The translations under genes and the position numbers were made by a program. The notes below the pieces were generated by a model. It ran no database searches. It had not been told where the DNA came from and saw only the letters and a program-made list of their open reading frames with translations. A stretch of DNA of 38,265 nt from contig CAINBI010000154.1 of assembly GCA_903846555.1 (NCBI GenBank), positions 1-38,265 on the forward strand, in the 5' to 3' direction. How positions within the stretch are numbered: the first letter of the stretch is position 1; each line of letters starts with the position of its first letter. Shown here piece after piece: positions 8,570 to 14,290 of the stretch. The DNA is from an uncultured Pseudomonadota bacterium (lineage in GTDB: Bacteria > Pseudomonadota > Gammaproteobacteria > Burkholderiales > Methylophilaceae).

Positions 8570-10276
8570 ATGTTACAAAGCCTTTCCATTCGTGATTTTG
8601 TCATCGTCAATCAACTCGACTTAGAGTTTGAGTCTGGCTTCACCGTGTTAACGGGCGAAACTGGCGCGGGTAAATCTATTTTAATCGATGCGTTATCGCT
8701 AGCTTTAGGCGCGCGCGGCGAGGGTGGCGTTACCCGTGCTGGCTGCGACAAGGCTGAAATAAGCGCTATTTTTAACATCAGCAATAATCTCGATGCACTA
8801 GAATGGCTCAAGCAAGCTGAGCTAGACAGCGATGGGCTGGAGTTAGTGTTGCGCCGCGTGATGTTTGTCGATGGTCGATCACGCGCCTATATTAACGGCG
8901 CCACCGTGACGGTATCGCAGCTAAAAGAACTGGGCGAATTTTTGGTGGATATTTACAGCCAAAATGCGCATCATTCCTTATTAAAACCTGCCACGCAGCG
9001 CATGGTGTTAGATAATTTCGGCGAGCTTTCAATGCTGGCATCGCAAGTGTCCGCCCATTTTAAAGCTTGGAACAAGCTTAATCAGCAGCGCGTAGAAGCT
9101 GAAAAAAATGCCAGCCAATATGCTGATGAATTTGCTGAGTTACGCGATAAAGCCCGTGAACTTGCACAACTCTCTATCACCGCTGGTGAGTGGGATGACT
9201 TGCAGCAAGAGCATGTGCGCTTATCAAATGGCGCTAGTTTAATTAGCGGCGGCGAGGAATGTAGAGAGTTGTTGAGCGAAGGCGAGTTGTCCGCGATGCG
9301 TTTGCTTTCACAAGTGCAACACAAGCTACAACATTTGTGTGAATACGATGCCGAAATTACCGAGGCGGTTGAGGCCTTAGATTCCACGATGATACAACTG
9401 GAAGAAACTGATCGTTTTTTGAATCGCTATTTACAACGTGCAGACTTAGACCCAGCAAGGCTGGCAGAGCTAGATGCCAAAATACAGAATATACATAATG
9501 TCTCACGTAAATACCGTGTGCAACCTGAAGAAATTGGCGAATTACTAACACAATCACAAGCGCGCATGGCTGAGCTGGCGCTGTTTGCCAACGATGGTGA
9601 ATTAGCCAGACAGGAATCGCAAGCCTTAATAGCATACATGCAATTAGCCACAAAATTAAGCGAAGGGCGCCAACTTGCTGCCGCTAAATTAAGCACACAG
9701 ATCAGCGCGGAGATGCAGCGCTTGTCCTTGAGCGGCGGTAAGTTTGAAGTGGCACTTAACTTGATAGATAAAAATTCACCAGAAAAAGCCCAGCCATCAC
9801 CCAATATCAACGGGTTGGAGCAAGTGGAGTTTTTGGTGGCAGGTCATGCAGGCGTTGCCGCAAGGCCTCTCGCCAAGGCGGCATCGGGCGGTGAGTTGTC
9901 ACGAATCAGCTTGGCGATTCGTGTCGTCACCGCGCAAAAAGAAAGTATCCCTACTATGATTTTCGATGAGGTTGACGTCGGCATTGGTGGCGGTGTGGCT
10001 GAGGTGGTTGGGCAGTTGTTAAAACAATTGGGTGAACCCGCTCACGGTGAAAAAGCCAGTCAGCGTCAAGTGTTAGTCATTACGCATCTACCGCAAGTCG
10101 CCGCATTGGGTATGCATCAATTACGAGTCAGCAAGTCTTTAGTTGGTACGCAAACGCTTAGTACCATCGCGGTGTTGGATAAAGTTGAGCGCGTAGAAGA
10201 AATCGCTCGCATGTTGGGTGGTCTTGAGATTACCGAAACTACGCGTCAACATGCAAGAGAGATGCTGGCGCGCTAA
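8570..10276 (+). CDS. recN: DNA repair protein RecN
   Basis: This SMC-like ATPase takes part in double-strand break repair. The 568-residue protein shows Walker A GETGAGKS at about residues 29-36. A long central helical region follows (about 160-380), with heptad-like stretches expected of the coiled coil. The ABC signature KAASGGELSRISLAIR and Walker B IFDEVDVGIGGGVAEVVG come next, then VITHLPQVAALG. It follows nadK, probably co-transcribed. A stem-loop repeat begins 35 bases after the stop and could terminate it before the convergent decayed DUF692 gene. I saw no LexA box, but none was systematically searched. Confidence 0.96.
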   Translation: MLQSLSIRDFVIVNQLDLEFESGFTVLTGETGAGKSILIDALSLALGARGEGGVTRAGCDKAEISAIFNISNNLDALEWLKQAELDSDGLELVLRRVMFVDGRSRAYINGATVTVSQLKELGEFLVDIYSQNAHHSLLKPATQRMVLDNFGELSMLASQVSAHFKAWNKLNQQRVEAEKNASQYADEFAELRDKARELAQLSITAGEWDDLQQEHVRLSNGASLISGGEECRELLSEGELSAMRLLSQVQHKLQHLCEYDAEITEAVEALDSTMIQLEETDRFLNRYLQRADLDPARLAELDAKIQNIHNVSRKYRVQPEEIGELLTQSQARMAELALFANDGELARQESQALIAYMQLATKLSEGRQLAAAKLSTQISAEMQRLSLSGGKFEVALNLIDKNSPEKAQPSPNINGLEQVEFLVAGHAGVAARPLAKAASGGELSRISLAIRVVTAQKESIPTMIFDEVDVGIGGGVAEVVGQLLKQLGEPAHGEKASQRQVLVITHLPQVAALGMHQLRVSKSLVGTQTLSTIAVLDKVERVEEIARMLGGLEITETTRQHAREMLAR

Positions 10277-10311
10277 TGGTAGTCAGGCAAATTTTGTCAA
10301 TCATTAGCTAA

Positions 10312-10363
10312 AAAGCACTGCCCTAGGACGCCCGTCCTTATTGCCTCGCAGAGCATCGTTTTT
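10312..10363. repeat. 52-bp dispersed stem-loop element, second copy
   Basis: AAAGCACTGCCCT with GCCCGTCC and a T-rich end matches the reverse complement of 998-1049 at 41 of 52 positions. It follows recN and precedes the 3' end of the decayed minus-strand gene, so it also lies at a convergent junction. Its stem is poorer than in the first copy, so terminator function is less certain here. Confidence 0.55.
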
Positions 10364-10391
10364 TGGTTGTTTTTGTAAGTCATTTAAAACT

Positions 10392-10752
10392 TCAAGCCCA
10401 AATTGAACATTTGCTTAAATGTTCTGTGTAAAGTGGACCCTAAAGGGGAATAGCATATTGCTGTAAAAATCTTTTCACTGGCTGTAAAAAATTCGTATTG
10501 AGCGGTGCTAAGCCAGCCAGTGATAAGCATAAGCCGTGACAAATATCGGGTAGCGCTCAACAAACCAGTCCAGTTGTTTGGCCGCCTTACCACCAATCCC
10601 TATCCAGTTTTCAGGCGCTATTTCAATAAAGTTGATATTGTTAATGAGTTCTAGGCCCAAAGCGGCTTGGATTTTTTTGGGGGGGTCAGCTCGCGCTTTA
10701 ACCCCAAACCAACGCCGTTAATTTGAGATTCGGCATGATGCAATGTTGCCAT
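10392..10752 (-). pseudogene. Decayed DUF692 (MNIO-family, bufB/hvfB-like) gene
   Basis: The minus strand starts at ATG 10752 with AAGG upstream. In three shifting frames it gives successive blocks of a DUF692 multinuclear non-haem iron oxidase. These are GVGLGLKRELT, then FIEIAPENWIGIGGKAAKQL and FVERYPIF, then HGLCLSLAGLAPLNTNFL, then YTEHLSKCS. The first frame change is at the C7A7 homopolymer (plus strand 10672-10685). The second is a one-base loss near 10537-10541, just before HGL. A 12-base insertion near 10431-10442 brings an in-frame TAG between IPL and YTEHLS. Homology then stops, so roughly the last 60 percent of a normal ~280-residue protein is missing. In this family the enzyme modifies Cys residues of the peptide encoded next to it, here the intact gene upstream. 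That partnership is inferred from context. Confidence 0.85.
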
Positions 10753-10793
10753 ATCGAACCTTAAATGTGTTTGCCTATCATTCTTGATTGAAA

Positions 10794-11144
10794 TTATTTA
10801 GCCATATTTTTTTTCATTTCAGCACTACAAGCACCTTCTTTCATTTTTTCAGCACTACATGAGCCTTCTTTCATTTTCTCAGCGCTACAAGCACCTTCTT
10901 TCATTTTTTCAGCACTACATGAGCCTTCTTTGGCTTTTTCCATCGCAGCTTTTTTGCTGGCACCACATTTTCCAGTAGAACATTTGCCATCTTTCATTTT
11001 TGTATCATTCCCAGCGACTTGATAGCCTGATGATAATGTTTTGGCAGAAAATGGGTTTTCTGCGGCATTGATAGAAGTTGCCGCGATGGATAATGCGAAA
11101 GCACCACTAATGGCAAGTGTGATTGTTTTTTGTGTTTTGTTCAT
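10794..11144 (-). CDS. Secreted Cys-repeat peptide, HvfA/bufferin (BufA1)-like RiPP precursor
   Basis: The 116-residue product has an N-terminal Sec signal (about residues 1-28, cleavage near INA/AENPF). The conserved segment NPFSAKTLSSGYQVAG is typical of HvfA-type low-complexity proteins. Two GKC motifs (Cys55, Cys60) follow, then four 10-residue repeats KEG(S/A)CSAEKM with Cys at 76, 86, 96 and 106. Ser and Ala alternate, which gives a 60-bp higher-order repeat in the DNA. Related peptides carry EGKCG motifs whose Cys are modified by DUF692 oxidases and are linked to copper stress (family knowledge). Here the oxidase gene behind it is a pseudogene. An ECF sigma and anti-sigma pair precede it, suggesting stress control. 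Confident of the family resemblance; function of the unmodified peptide is unknown. Confidence 0.8.
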   Translation of the reverse strand: MNKTQKTITLAISGAFALSIAATSINAAENPFSAKTLSSGYQVAGNDTKMKDGKCSTGKCGASKKAAMEKAKEGSCSAEKMKEGACSAEKMKEGSCSAEKMKEGACSAEMKKNMAK

Positions 11145-11203: not shown

Positions 11204-11464
11204 TTAATGTTTTCTGGCGGCAATCGCTTTAGTCATTCGAGCTTTGGCCTCCAAGCTAAGTTGTATAGTATCGTCATTTTCAGTCGCCTGAATCAGCCGC
11301 TTTACTGCGGTGTTTAACCAATGTAATTGTTGATTAAAACGATTACAAGCAGCGCAAATAATAAGGTGAAACTTTAATTTCAGTCGGTCAGACCATGACA
11401 ATGGCTTATCTAAAGACTGCGAGATAATCTGGCTGGCTTGTTTGCAAGTAAGCATTAGTTTCAT
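11204..11464 (-). CDS. Small zinc-type anti-sigma factor (zf-HC2-like)
   Basis: The 86-residue soluble protein contains H33-x3-C37-x2-C40 (HLIICAAC), the core of the ZAS/zf-HC2 fold, plus Cys7 near the N-terminus. There is no membrane segment, so it would be a cytoplasmic anti-sigma factor. It starts three bases after the sigma gene ends and precedes the Cys-rich peptide gene, the usual order in sigma/anti-sigma/precursor cassettes. It probably holds the ECF sigma factor inactive until a metal or thiol signal releases it. That role is inferred from the motif and position. Confidence 0.75.
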   Translation of the reverse strand: MKLMLTCKQASQIISQSLDKPLSWSDRLKLKFHLIICAACNRFNQQLHWLNTAVKRLIQATENDDTIQLSLEAKARMTKAIAARKH

Positions 11465-11467
11465 TGT

Positions 11468-12025
11468 TTATCTCGCTAACCATTGTATCTCTAAGCATTT
11501 TCTTAATCCCATTCTAGCTCTATACAACATCACCCAAGCATTGGTCGTGCTAATGTTGAGTTCCTTACAAATATTATCATTCTCTGTTTCATGCACGTCG
11601 CGCATCATAAATATAGCGGCTAACTTGCTGGGGAGTTTATCCAGACAACTATTCAGAATGCTCAAAAATTGTTTTTGTTGAAGTGCATTCTCCGGCATTT
11701 CTAAGGTTTGCGGCTTTTCAAGCCAATGGCCGCTGGCATCAAAAAAGTCATCCATGCTTGTATCAGAGGACTCTAAATCGACCAAGTCAGAAATGGGTTG
11801 CTCGCGTATCTGCTTGCGTTGTAGGTCGATTACTTTATGTTTGAGTATGCCTGTAAGCCAAGTGCGTGCAGATGAAGCACCCTCAAAACTATTGCTTTTA
11901 ATGGCGGCTAGCATGGTTTCCTGCACAGCATCTTCAGCTTGGTGCGGATCGCGCAGTCTAGCTAATGCAAAGCGATACAGATAATCACCGTGTTCAGTAA
12001 GCCAGTCATTTACGTTTTTAGTCAT
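11468..12025 (-). CDS. ECF-subfamily RNA polymerase sigma factor
   Basis: The 185-residue protein has sigma region 2 (about residues 10-75, DYLYRFALARLRDPHQAEDAVQ and TWLTGILKHKVIDLQR) and region 4 (about 125-180, LDKLPSKLAAIFMMRDV and LNISTTNAWVMLYRARMGLRKCL). An acidic linker separates them. This is a typical ECF layout. Its ATG overlaps the upstream DUF1841 stop as TGATG, so it is translationally coupled to a housekeeping-type gene, while the anti-sigma gene begins right behind it. Likely targets are its own cassette and related metal-stress genes. I did not identify a matching promoter. Confidence 0.9.
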   Translation of the reverse strand: MTKNVNDWLTEHGDYLYRFALARLRDPHQAEDAVQETMLAAIKSNSFEGASSARTWLTGILKHKVIDLQRKQIREQPISDLVDLESSDTSMDDFFDASGHWLEKPQTLEMPENALQQKQFLSILNSCLDKLPSKLAAIFMMRDVHETENDNICKELNISTTNAWVMLYRARMGLRKCLEIQWLAR

Positions 12026-12465
12026 CAGGATTGTTTGGATTTCTGTTTTAATAAATTGAGGTAGGTTTCAGAATCTAATGGCTGGCCATTGCGCTGTGCC
12101 TGCCAAATGGTTTCCGCCAAACATTCAAGTAAATCATGCTGCGCTAAATGACTCTCATTATATTGTTGTTGTAATCTATCATAAATCCGTGTGATGCCTA
12201 TGGGTTGATTGATACTAATTTGTTCAATTACCGATAAATGCAGGCTTAAGTGCAGAAATGGATTGGTTTCACCCATCTCTGGAAAATACTGCTGATGCAT
12301 ATAACGCGCGGGTGAATCTAAAATGACGTGATATTCAGGGTGCATTTGAATGACTTCGACTGCGATTTTTTCTAAATCAGAAAGGATGGAATGCTGCTTA
12401 AATTTTGCCCAAGCATCAAATAGAAACTGCCGGGCCTGATCACGGCTTGGGTTATACAAACTCAT
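12025..12465 (-). CDS. DUF1841 family protein
   Basis: The 146-residue, probably cytoplasmic, protein begins MSLYNPSRDQARQFLFDAW and contains HPEYHVILD and NPFLHLSLHLSVIEQISINQP, which I recognise as DUF1841, a betaproteobacterial and gammaproteobacterial family of unknown function. No catalytic motif, signal peptide or membrane span is visible. The several His residues in the central helix (HLSLHLS) could bind a ligand, but that is speculation. It lies 25 bases below the FIST gene and overlaps the sigma factor start by one base. Confidence 0.8.
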   Translation of the reverse strand: MSLYNPSRDQARQFLFDAWAKFKQHSILSDLEKIAVEVIQMHPEYHVILDSPARYMHQQYFPEMGETNPFLHLSLHLSVIEQISINQPIGITRIYDRLQQQYNESHLAQHDLLECLAETIWQAQRNGQPLDSETYLNLLKQKSKQS

Positions 12466-12490: not shown

Positions 12491-13591
12491 TTATGCGTTG
12501 GCTTGTTCATTCAATACGGCGAATAGTGAAAACACGGCAGAATGTGGCAGTAATTGATTTTCACCAGCAATAGCTGCAATTTGGCCGTTACCATAAAAAC
12601 CTAATAATGGCATATTGGGTAGCTGCTGGGTAATTACTTTTAAATCACGGTCTATGCCATCGTATAAATATGGGCCTCTTGCTAGGCTGGAAAATAAGAG
12701 GCCGAAGCTAGGATCCGTAGCTAACTCACGCTTCATTTGATGTGTGATGAGCGTCAACTCAGCTTCTGCGACAGTTTTGTCACGCAATCCCCAGCTTATA
12801 AATTGCCCTGCTTTTAGTGGTTGTGCAATCGTGATGCTTCCGCTGAGTTCGTCATAAGCAAAGATATTAGCCTGCTGAAAGTTCCCATGACTAATCGCTA
12901 CAGCATTGTCTGCATAGATTGCCATGATTAAATGCAAAGGTATAGCTTCGTGACTTTTGCTGTGTGTTTTCCACGCTTTTTGTAATGAAAGTAGCGGTAG
13001 TTTGTTGGCTAGCTGAGTGATATCAAAGCCAGATACAGATTCAATTTTCTGCGGTTGGCTGAGCAGCTGTAAGCCATGTGACACCTTAGTAGCCAATTGT
13101 ACACCAGCAAAAAAAGCTTCAATCTGGCCAGACGTTTCGCCTTTCACATTCTCCCAGACAGAAAAATGACCTTGACCAATCGCATCGCCAGAAACGCCGC
13201 CAAAACGTGTGTTGCCATCATTCAGCCAAGTGCTGTTAATCGCATTGGGGGCGGTGAGTGTAAATAAGGGTTGACGCCTGTGGTTTTGATTTGCTGGCTG
13301 TAAAGAAACGCCATCGCCAAACACCATCACCGCTGCCGCAGGTGCATCAAGCACCCAGTCGTCTTCAGTAAAAATACCGCTAGCAGTGCAACCCATGACT
13401 AACATGCAGTTAGCCGCTTTTGCTGCCGCCTTGATGGCTGGTTGCGGGTTGTTTGCAAACTCGGCGCTTAATAAAAGTAACACGCTACTCGCTACAGTAA
13501 TACCCGCTTTTTGCATTGCCTGACTAACGGCTTGGGCGGCCAATTCTGGGCTGGCTTTATTGCCGAGTACGATGCTGGTTGCGACTTTCAT
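12491..13591 (-). CDS. FIST-domain protein (putative small-ligand sensor)
   Basis: The 366-residue protein has an N-terminal FIST segment with VMGCTASGIFTEDDW and FGGVSGDAIGQG. A C-terminal FIST_C half contains ELTLITHQMKRELA and the characteristic LLFSSLARGPYLYDG with GFYGNGQIA near the end. FIST domains are usually regarded as sensory modules that bind small ligands, perhaps amino acids. Here no output domain (GGDEF, kinase or HTH) is attached, so it would act alone or through a partner. No signal peptide or membrane span. It lies between nth and DUF1841 with 25-30 base gaps, within the long minus-strand run. Confidence 0.8.
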   Translation of the reverse strand: MKVATSIVLGNKASPELAAQAVSQAMQKAGITVASSVLLLLSAEFANNPQPAIKAAAKAANCMLVMGCTASGIFTEDDWVLDAPAAAVMVFGDGVSLQPANQNHRRQPLFTLTAPNAINSTWLNDGNTRFGGVSGDAIGQGHFSVWENVKGETSGQIEAFFAGVQLATKVSHGLQLLSQPQKIESVSGFDITQLANKLPLLSLQKAWKTHSKSHEAIPLHLIMAIYADNAVAISHGNFQQANIFAYDELSGSITIAQPLKAGQFISWGLRDKTVAEAELTLITHQMKRELATDPSFGLLFSSLARGPYLYDGIDRDLKVITQQLPNMPLLGFYGNGQIAAIAGENQLLPHSAVFSLFAVLNEQANA

Positions 13592-13621: not shown

Positions 13622-14290
13622 TTACTGTGGGCTTGCTGCGGTGTTAGATTGGATCGCGTTATATTCTTTAGCCTTGTATTCGCATAAATCTTCAATACAG
13701 CATTCAGCGCATTTTGGTTTACGTGCAGTACAAATATAGCGACCATGTAATATTAATAAATGATGTGCGTCTCGCATAAACTCTGGTGGAATAGTCTTGA
13801 GATACTTCATTTCAACTTCTAAAACGGTTTTGCCAGTGGCCAGTTTGATACGGTTGCCTAACCGAAATAAATGCGTGTCTACGGCAATCGTCGGTTCACC
13901 AAATGCAGTATTTAACATGACATTCGCAGTTTTACGACCTACGCCTGGCAAGGCCTCAAGCGCAATCCGTGTATTAGGTACCTGTGATTGATGCTGAGTA
14001 ATCAGCATTTGGCAGGTAGCCAATACATTTTTAGCCTTGGCGTGATATAAGCCTATGGTTTTAATGAATTGCTCTAAGCCTATTATACCTAGCGCCAGTA
14101 TGCTTTCAGGCGTATTGGCAACCGCGTAGAGTTTCTCGGTGGCAAGATTAACGCTTTTGTCAGTCGCTTGCGCCGACAGTATGACCGCAATCAATAACTC
14201 AAACGTACTGTTATGTCTGAGTTCCGTACTCGGATTGGGGATAGCAATACTTAAACGTTGGAATATTTCAAAACGTTGCTTAGCATTCAT
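13622..14290 (-). CDS. nth: Endonuclease III
   Basis: This HhH-GPD DNA glycosylase/AP lyase removes oxidised pyrimidines. The 222-residue protein shows LLIAVILSAQATDKSVN, the helix-hairpin-helix ALPGVGRKTANVML with the catalytic Lys, and the catalytic Asp in AVDTHLFRLGNR. The C-terminal [4Fe-4S] ligands follow the pattern Cys-x6-Cys-x2-Cys-x5-Cys (CTARKPKCAECCIEDLC). The gene follows rnfE by 19 bases, the same rnf/rsx-nth order as in E. coli. The iron-sulfur cluster and the Rnf neighbourhood make co-expression with redox genes plausible. Confidence 0.96.
   Translation of the reverse strand: MNAKQRFEIFQRLSIAIPNPSTELRHNSTFELLIAVILSAQATDKSVNLATEKLYAVANTPESILALGIIGLEQFIKTIGLYHAKAKNVLATCQMLITQHQSQVPNTRIALEALPGVGRKTANVMLNTAFGEPTIAVDTHLFRLGNRIKLATGKTVLEVEMKYLKTIPPEFMRDAHHLLILHGRYICTARKPKCAECCIEDLCEYKAKEYNAIQSNTAASPQ

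Follow-up and report, generated by a model that had tools for sequence, protein, structure and literature searches.

Operons of the hvf, oxazolin and captophorin type (HvfABCX, FonABC and NgoABC) encode a Cys-repeat precursor with a Sec leader, an MNIO enzyme, its DUF2063 partner and a DoxX protein, as described in the parts of PMC13419390 and PMC13097082 that are drawn on here. According to the same parts of these papers, HvfB and HvfC are both required and work best on HvfA that bears its signal peptide (PMC13419390), and FonBC tolerates most changes in the core of its substrate, with only Gly or Ala having worked after Cys (PMC13097082). Sizeable shares of the precursors of bufferin-type RiPPs are encoded away from any MNIO gene; in the sections of PMC12452194 that treat precursors distant from MNIO genes, either modification at a distance or no modification is proposed, and the former is left open there. 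With regard to regulation, the portion of PMC3489674 used here describes, for SigH/RshA of Corynebacterium glutamicum, a sigma-dependent promoter within the sigma coding region that drives the anti-sigma gene.

The locus analyzed in the present work lies in a stretch of 38,265 nucleotides (hereinafter, the window, i.e. the whole stretch of DNA that was analyzed), which is contig C154 of a single 2.58 Mb draft genome consisting of 170 contigs, the nearest named relatives of which are Methylotenera and other Methylophilaceae. Read along the minus strand, the genes are, in order, nth-like, FIST, DUF1841, ECF sigma factor, zf-HC2 anti-sigma factor, six-Cys peptide and wrecked DUF692 gene, after which comes a recN-like gene in the opposite direction (Table 1). 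The gene names dnaX, rpoH, secA, recN, nth and uvrC were assigned by eye and are putative.

Table 1. Features of the orphaned precursor locus in window coordinates
Feature	Position	Strand	Basis
recN-like gene	8570..10276	+	ORF, comparison with sisters
hvfC tail (DUF2063 partner), 41 bases, joined to the hvfB remnant via a ~1.3 kb deletion	10367..10407	-	34/41 bases identical to the G045 hvfC 3' end
hvfB remnant (DUF692/MNIO maturase), first third, frames broken	10413..10752	-	PF05114 and NF003818 pieces, DNA alignment with G045 hvfB
hvfA1, HvfA-like Cys-repeat precursor, secreted-looking, 116 aa, six Cys, intact	10794..11144	-	ORF
60-base tandem repeat in hvfA1, 1.9 copies, 98% matches, encoding KMKEG(S/A)CSAE units in frame	10819..10931	-	TRF
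zf-HC2 anti-sigma factor	11204..11464	-	PF13490 above cut-off; NF052368 70.3 against a cut-off of 50
ECF sigma factor, TIGR02943 family	11468..12025	-	205.5 bits, above the cut-off of 162.2
Predicted ECF promoter, TGTAAGGAA-N13-CGAC, inside the sigma gene on region-4 helix-turn-helix codons	11544..11569	-	zero-mismatch match; nucleotide conservation; same motif and spacing intergenically
DUF1841 gene, conserved neighbor	12025..12465	-	PF08897, synteny
FIST-domain gene, conserved neighbor	12491..13591	-	PF10442 and PF08495, synteny
nth-like gene, conserved neighbor	13622..14290	-	ORF, synteny

The similarity of the wrecked gene to DUF692, first proposed from the sequence alone, was recovered in profile searches of the genome's contigs: PF05114 matches the minus strand at 10389-10550, across one TGA and one TAG, and again in another frame at 10538-10642, and a piece of the NCBIfam HvfB model NF003818 is found in the fragment ORF (E 2.3e-9; 37.2 bits, below the full-length cut-off of 360 bits). 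When its DNA is aligned with that of G045, the closest sister genome found, the remnant is 77% identical over 350 columns, after which the alignment jumps by ~1.29 kb to a 41-base match to the 3' end of hvfC (83%, E 4e-7); about two thirds of hvfB is deleted. Compared to G045, hvfB has a net gain of five bases, lacks a single base elsewhere, contains a 12-base insertion that brings in a stop, and is cut short by the large deletion, in agreement with the shifting frames and the stop-bearing 12-base insertion of the sequence-only reading. The same reading held the DUF2063 partner to be absent from the locus, which is correct inasmuch as no gene is found there, but the 41-base tail of hvfC persists; the single match to PF09836 (DUF2063) in the whole genome is on another contig, C92. 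In G045 (C49; L007:4669-5453), hvfB is open and hvfC is split by a frameshift, which could be either real early decay or a draft sequencing error.

Given that a secA-like gene neighbors this side of the locus in most sisters, a rearrangement breakpoint can be placed between the recN-like gene and the hvfC tail, where ~90 bases (10277-10366) have no clear match in G045; the secA side is now on C18 (L062). The possibility that hvfB was split by the rearrangement that brought recN alongside was rejected: the only part of G045 that is matched by the secA neighborhood elsewhere in the genome is the stretch beyond the end of hvfC, with no hvfBC.

The ancestral organization was sought in sets of 20, 16 and 20 stretches of DNA that were examined for gene order; in most native loci among these, the sigma factor, anti-sigma factor, hvfA, hvfB and hvfC genes stand side by side, as a rule after nth and DUF1841. 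Named genomes were also searched with the sigma protein; of the 528 relatives, the best 80 were kept, of which five are distant (sigma identity 49-52%) and 75 were counted. In this set (best 80 of 528), hvfA-hvfB-hvfC is present in 68 of the 75 Methylophilaceae-type loci, including L063 (the G045 contig) and L121, where hvfC was found only partly or in two pieces, and the orthologues of hvfA1 lie directly upstream of HvfB and HvfC, which is not so at the window's own locus. Three other loci (L079, L099 and L108) have the sigma and anti-sigma genes followed by a secA-like gene, with hvfABC gone; in one (L088, which shares its contig with L038 of G015), sigma, anti-sigma and hvfA are followed by 1.6 kb up to the contig end that contain no hvfBC; and three (L066, L094 and L138) stop at the contig edge. 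The state of the window, with hvfA kept beside an hvfB remnant, occurs in none of these 75 loci. Given that the locus is normally whole, the comparison with relatives substantiates the earlier proposal that the precursor and the sigma/anti-sigma pair were kept and the enzyme was lost.

The genomes with L079, L099 and L108 yielded no match to HvfA anywhere, and in the one of the three that was checked for HvfB/DUF692 (G013, the genome of L079), none was found. Across the family, HvfA (profile A1, E 0.001) and HvfB (E 1e-60) were each detected in 104 of 187 genomes, and the listed genomes are identical. Because the sigma and anti-sigma genes stay after the loss of hvfABC, the sigma factor of L079, L099 and L108 probably has other targets; their persistence was accordingly rejected as evidence for hvfA1, both genes being present without hvfA in these three loci. 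Several candidate orphan hvfA genes were also dismissed: in G043, one gene is seen at two contig ends, in G050 the locus stops at a contig edge, in G091 and G094 both genes are close to contig starts, in G024 the match is weak and was not confirmed, and the G019 gene is a distant paralogue. The latter (C153; L044:4412-4753) encodes a protein of 113 aa with the NPF...GY.V leader signature and only two Cys (CGAGSC), and is located away from hvfB. A second sigma - anti-sigma - hvfA module without hvfBC after it is found in G015 (C3; L038:4126-5314), a genome that also has a complete native operon.

An intact DUF692/DUF2063 pair does exist elsewhere in the genome. Contig C92 encodes, in this order, a second sigma factor (sigma2) and anti-sigma factor, a thioredoxin-like and a CcdA/DsbD-like protein (both below model cut-offs), hvfA2, hvfB2, hvfC2 and hvfX/DoxX. 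In the profile search of the contigs, HvfB2 is the genome's one intact DUF692 protein, with 403.1 bits over positions 1-264 of the 264 of NF003818, above the cut-off of 360, and its closest solved relative is 3bww; HvfC2 scores 274.5 bits with NF050145 (cut-off 142) and HvfX 131 against an NCBIfam cut-off of 80, and sigma2, like the window sigma, passes the TIGR02943 cut-off. With HvfB, HvfC and HvfX thus each above the cut-off, modification by a DUF692 enzyme encoded elsewhere has become the best supported of the three fates that the sequence-only reading had listed for the peptide, the others being function without modification and impending loss.

This enzyme belongs to another lineage than the native HvfB and was probably acquired, as judged from sequence comparison. 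The seven proteins closest to HvfB2 (83, 81, 79, 76, 73, 72 and 72% identity) come from five other genera, and identity to members of its own genus is 59-68%. In a tree of 75 proteins, four of which are BufB, HvfB2 groups with G084, G100 and L127 (support 100/99) within a group of eight (100/98), and falls outside the 50-row group (88/99) that holds nearly all rows named Methylotenera and Methylophilus, L117 being an exception. In seven of that group of eight, DoxX follows hvfC; the eighth, L027, stops inside hvfC. Instead of having been acquired, the C92 operon could conceivably be an old paralogue that was lost everywhere else in the genus. Contamination of the bin was considered and appears unlikely: C92 looks like this genome's own because the dnaX and rpoH genes on the same contig are of the genus type, dnaX having its best match in G045 (86%) and rpoH its best three at 89-90%, G045 among them, in searches made within the genus only. 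The G+C content of C92 gives no clear signal on its origin.

The peptide upstream of the remnant is, as had been read from the sequence, an intact ORF with six Cys. We denote it HvfA-like because NF050188 matches it with 25.3 bits, below the equivalog cut-off of 95; its leader resembles a signal peptide by eye. HvfA1 is 89% identical, over the aligned columns, to its orthologue beside the open hvfB of G045 and 61% identical to HvfA2. Its Cys motifs, looked at beside EGKCG-type repeats, are one TGKCG and otherwise DGKCS, EGSCS and EGACS, and those of HvfA2 are DGKCS, TGKCS and EGNCS, so that core motifs are common to both precursors; in HvfA1, the core Cys is mostly followed by Ser rather than Gly, and Ser is next in HvfA2 as well. 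Comparison of the HvfA1 leader for signs of adaptation to HvfBC2 revealed none.

The pN/pS values of hvfA1 are 0.141 to G045 (101 codons), 0.271 to G050 and 0.217 to G037, and those of five neighbor genes against G045 lie between 0.103 and 0.389. We then counted the changes found in this genome alone (private changes), taking first and second codon positions that are invariant among four outgroups. The remnant has 15 of these in 173 positions (G045 has 3 at the same positions), compared to 47 in 1571 for the five intact neighbors (p = 0.0007), and by this sequence measure is under relaxed constraint. For hvfA1, the count is 5 in 146, which does not differ from the neighbors (p = 0.80); the difference from the remnant has p = 0.065 (Fisher), and the Poisson probability of 5 or fewer changes at the remnant's rate is 0.013. 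On the basis of these counts and tests, which are of modest power, the remnant is relaxed and hvfA1 looks constrained since the split from the nearest sister.

These observations can be combined in the following scenario. The locus is the native one of a Methylotenera-group species (sigma - anti-sigma - hvfA - hvfB - hvfC), in which hvfB and hvfC were lost through deletion and decay; a complete hvf operon, now on C92 and probably acquired beforehand, would have made the native enzymes dispensable. An ECF promoter within the sigma gene would keep HvfA1 expressed, and HvfB2 and HvfC2 may mature it in trans to a thiooxazole-containing, copper-binding peptide. We consider displacement of the native maturation genes by the acquired operon to be very probable, the order and the cause of the events being what we infer, and maturation of HvfA1 in trans to be plausible, with somewhat better than even chances. 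The scenario as a whole, in which the direction and cause of displacement, the expression and maturation of HvfA1 and its copper role are all putative, appears moderately probable. Several lines of evidence favor this scenario, in addition to the intact C92 operon and its different lineage: HvfA and HvfB occur in the same family genomes; the three genomes without hvfABC at the locus have no HvfA at all; hvfA1 appears constrained and its core motifs are common with HvfA2; the promoter motif is intact both in the window and before hvfA2; and G015 has a sigma - anti-sigma - hvfA module without adjacent hvfBC plus a complete operon elsewhere. Cross-recognition between HvfA1 and HvfBC2 is nevertheless not assured, because HvfA1 is native-type by its identities to G045 and HvfA2 and because HvfBC prefers a precursor that bears its signal peptide; the strictness of FonBC also counts against maturation since most Cys here precede Ser, although this holds for HvfA2 too. 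The subthreshold score of HvfA1 with the HvfA model and the reliance on one draft genome likewise weigh against the scenario.

The simplest objection, namely that the damage to hvfB arose in assembly or sequencing, could draw on the number of contigs in this draft genome and on the one lesion that sits in a homopolymer run, but is hardly credible given the several independent lesions in the remnant, its junction with the true 3' end of hvfC, the excess of changes at its conserved positions compared to the five neighbors, and the absence of native-type hvfB/hvfC pieces from the rest of the assembly. A more serious alternative is that hvfA1 itself is on the way out, i.e. is a leftover of the native operon that has not yet visibly decayed and that, with HvfA2 present, no longer serves any function itself. 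Because the rates of the remnant and hvfA1 differ only at the Fisher p-value given above, hvfA1 may be too recently orphaned for visible decay; relaxation of the remnant itself apparently spans only a portion of the branch of this lineage, judging from its private changes relative to the neighbors, so that decay of hvfA1 may lag, and the three loci in which sigma and anti-sigma alone persist without hvfABC indicate that the retention of these two genes proves nothing for hvfA1. On the other hand, hvfA1 kept its frame, repeats and promoter motif beside a gene with several frame-breaking lesions, the Poisson estimate argues against evolution at the remnant's rate, and in the three other losses hvfA disappeared along with hvfBC; on balance, we regard this alternative as unlikely, albeit a real contender.

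Still less probable, although better placed than an artefact, is that HvfA1 acts unmodified as a periplasmic thiol metal sponge. The six Cys and the signal-peptide-like leader are intact, and the part of PMC12452194 used here allows for unmodified precursors away from MNIO genes, its Table 3 giving 67 of 2583 genomes with EGKCG-type precursors but no MNIO gene. Within the family, however, every genome with HvfA also has HvfB at the thresholds applied, and a self-sufficient sponge would not need HvfB. Displacement of the native enzymes with maturation in trans remains the preferred reading.

The promoter that would keep hvfA1 expressed is predicted to lie within the sigma gene, where it would drive transcription of the anti-sigma gene and hvfA1. 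The motif coincides with the codons for C K E L x I x x T N in the presumed helix-turn-helix of sigma region 4. We compared 74 native sigma genes (the window gene, L063-L136 and L138, minus L130 and L138, which were dropped by the length/identity filter). The codon of residue 153 is TGT in all 74, and residue 154 is encoded by AAG in 73 genes, the remaining one having AAT (Asn); in the rest of these genes, AAA is more frequent than AAG (529 to 207) and TGT and TGC are about equally common (96 to 86). Residue 160 varies (Ala 34, Thr 20, Pro 13, Ser 6, Lys 1) and its codon is nevertheless NCG in 73 of the 74 genes, compared to 19.6 expected from codon usage; on a quickly built sigma tree with weak support (12 of 71 inner branches starred), the distribution of Ala, Thr, Pro and Ser requires 26 changes. 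Ranked by excess codon conservation among 126 scored columns, the motif columns 154, 161, 153 and 155 come 4, 7, 9 and 29, and the flanking columns 163, which is just beyond the motif, and 152 come 1 and 3; columns 167, 170, 174 and 61 also show strong codon conservation that the motif does not explain.

The exact pattern TGTAAGGAR-N13-CGAC is present in 62 of the 74 sigma genes, and in 72 when the middle base of the third codon is left free. Allowing up to two mismatches, shuffled versions of the window contain 0.52 matches on average, with at least one in 42 of 100 shuffles, so that a match at this level is not significant; the match in the window has zero mismatches. After the loss of hvfABC, the embedded motif is clearly lost in L079 and kept in L099, and L108 has one changed codon that is seen also where hvfABC is present; being clear in only one of three loci, its loss was not accepted as proof. 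Beyond the family, TGTAAGGAA occurs at the same sigma codons in Halomonas (L144), without the -10 part, and in Rhodocyclales relatives (TGC once) together with CGTC; no hvf genes were found beside the Rhodocyclales sigma genes, the ORFs having been read in L140 and L141.

The conserved motif with its fixed spacing also precedes regulon genes, with exceptions. On C92 (L006:6995-9449), TGTAAGGAA-N13-CG(A/T)(C/T) is found before sigma2 (~215 bases upstream), the thioredoxin-CcdA pair and hvfA2, and three matches are reached in 4 of 200 shuffles; here the motif is upstream of the sigma gene, in contrast to its position inside the native one. Because the same motif precedes hvfA, the thioredoxin-CcdA pair and the sigma gene on C92, the window and C92 loci are probably co-induced. 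For a looser pattern, shuffling the 1.30 Mb of gathered sequence leaves a mean of 1.7 matches. In 6 of 10 clusters, an intergenic site with no more than two mismatches is found before the thioredoxin gene (21 of 3000 single-base shuffles), the ten upstream regions comprising four with an exact site, one each with one, two and three mismatches, and three with none. At the same stringency, a site is found before a separate doxX gene in both genomes concerned (three loci, two on the same contig) and, in divergent orientation, at the stretch before bufB in G042 and G051. Related sigma loci on Pantoea and Acinetobacter plasmids have copies with one or two mismatches before the DUF2282 gene, a presumed precursor gene and doxX, and not inside the sigma gene. 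In L050, L052 and L054, the motif or a close variant precedes free-standing thioredoxin-CcdA pairs, two of which are beside bufB. In G031 (L024:2935-7312), a related sigma/anti-sigma pair, with the motif inside the sigma gene, stands before a short ORF and the ovothiol genes ovoA and a PatB-type lyase, so that ovothiol synthesis may belong to the regulon.

Taken at face value, these patterns suggest that an ECF sigma gene encodes its own target, with the helix-turn-helix codons being also the promoter that the protein reads, protein and promoter sharing one stretch of 26 bases in nearly all Methylophilaceae loci examined, and the promoter driving the anti-sigma gene and the copper-peptide operon rather than the sigma gene; we would put this somewhat above an even call. 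The shuffle counts, the conserved columns that the motif does not explain, the motif parts in Halomonas and Rhodocyclales and the thioredoxin-CcdA upstream regions without a site speak against it. If so, this is a strongly constrained case in which one DNA stretch is both the code for a protein and the binding site of that same protein, and the embedded switch would explain the co-regulation of the orphaned precursor with the enzymes of the acquired operon. The motif would also permit regulon prediction in these methylotrophs, covering hvf, buf, thioredoxin-CcdA, doxX and perhaps ovothiol genes. The genome itself is a natural experiment, with one precursor whose own enzyme is dead and one foreign enzyme pair that may serve it.

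Compared to the described hvf operons, the C92 operon is alike, passing the HvfB, HvfC and HvfX model cut-offs, whereas in the window hvfB and hvfC are wrecked, the precursor is accompanied by the sigma/anti-sigma pair only, and the core Cys stand mostly before Ser, not Gly. The locus resembles the distant precursors treated in the relevant sections of PMC12452194 in that the likely enzyme of the window precursor is encoded at another locus, and differs from those described there in that what is left of the lost enzyme gene can still be seen at the locus, a likely replacement operon was identified and a promoter motif is common to both loci. The sigma factors of the window and of C92 are both members of the TIGR02943 ECF family, with the motif inside the native gene and upstream of the C92 one. 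In the covered part of the open-license literature, we found no description of a sigma-dependent promoter on helix-turn-helix codons. The closest parallel is SigH/RshA, where a promoter inside the sigma gene likewise serves the anti-sigma gene, as predicted here; the portion of PMC3489674 used does not mention an overlap of that promoter with DNA-binding codons or a RiPP operon under its control, whereas the motif described here lies on the helix-turn-helix codons and is conserved at the nucleotide level in 74 genes.
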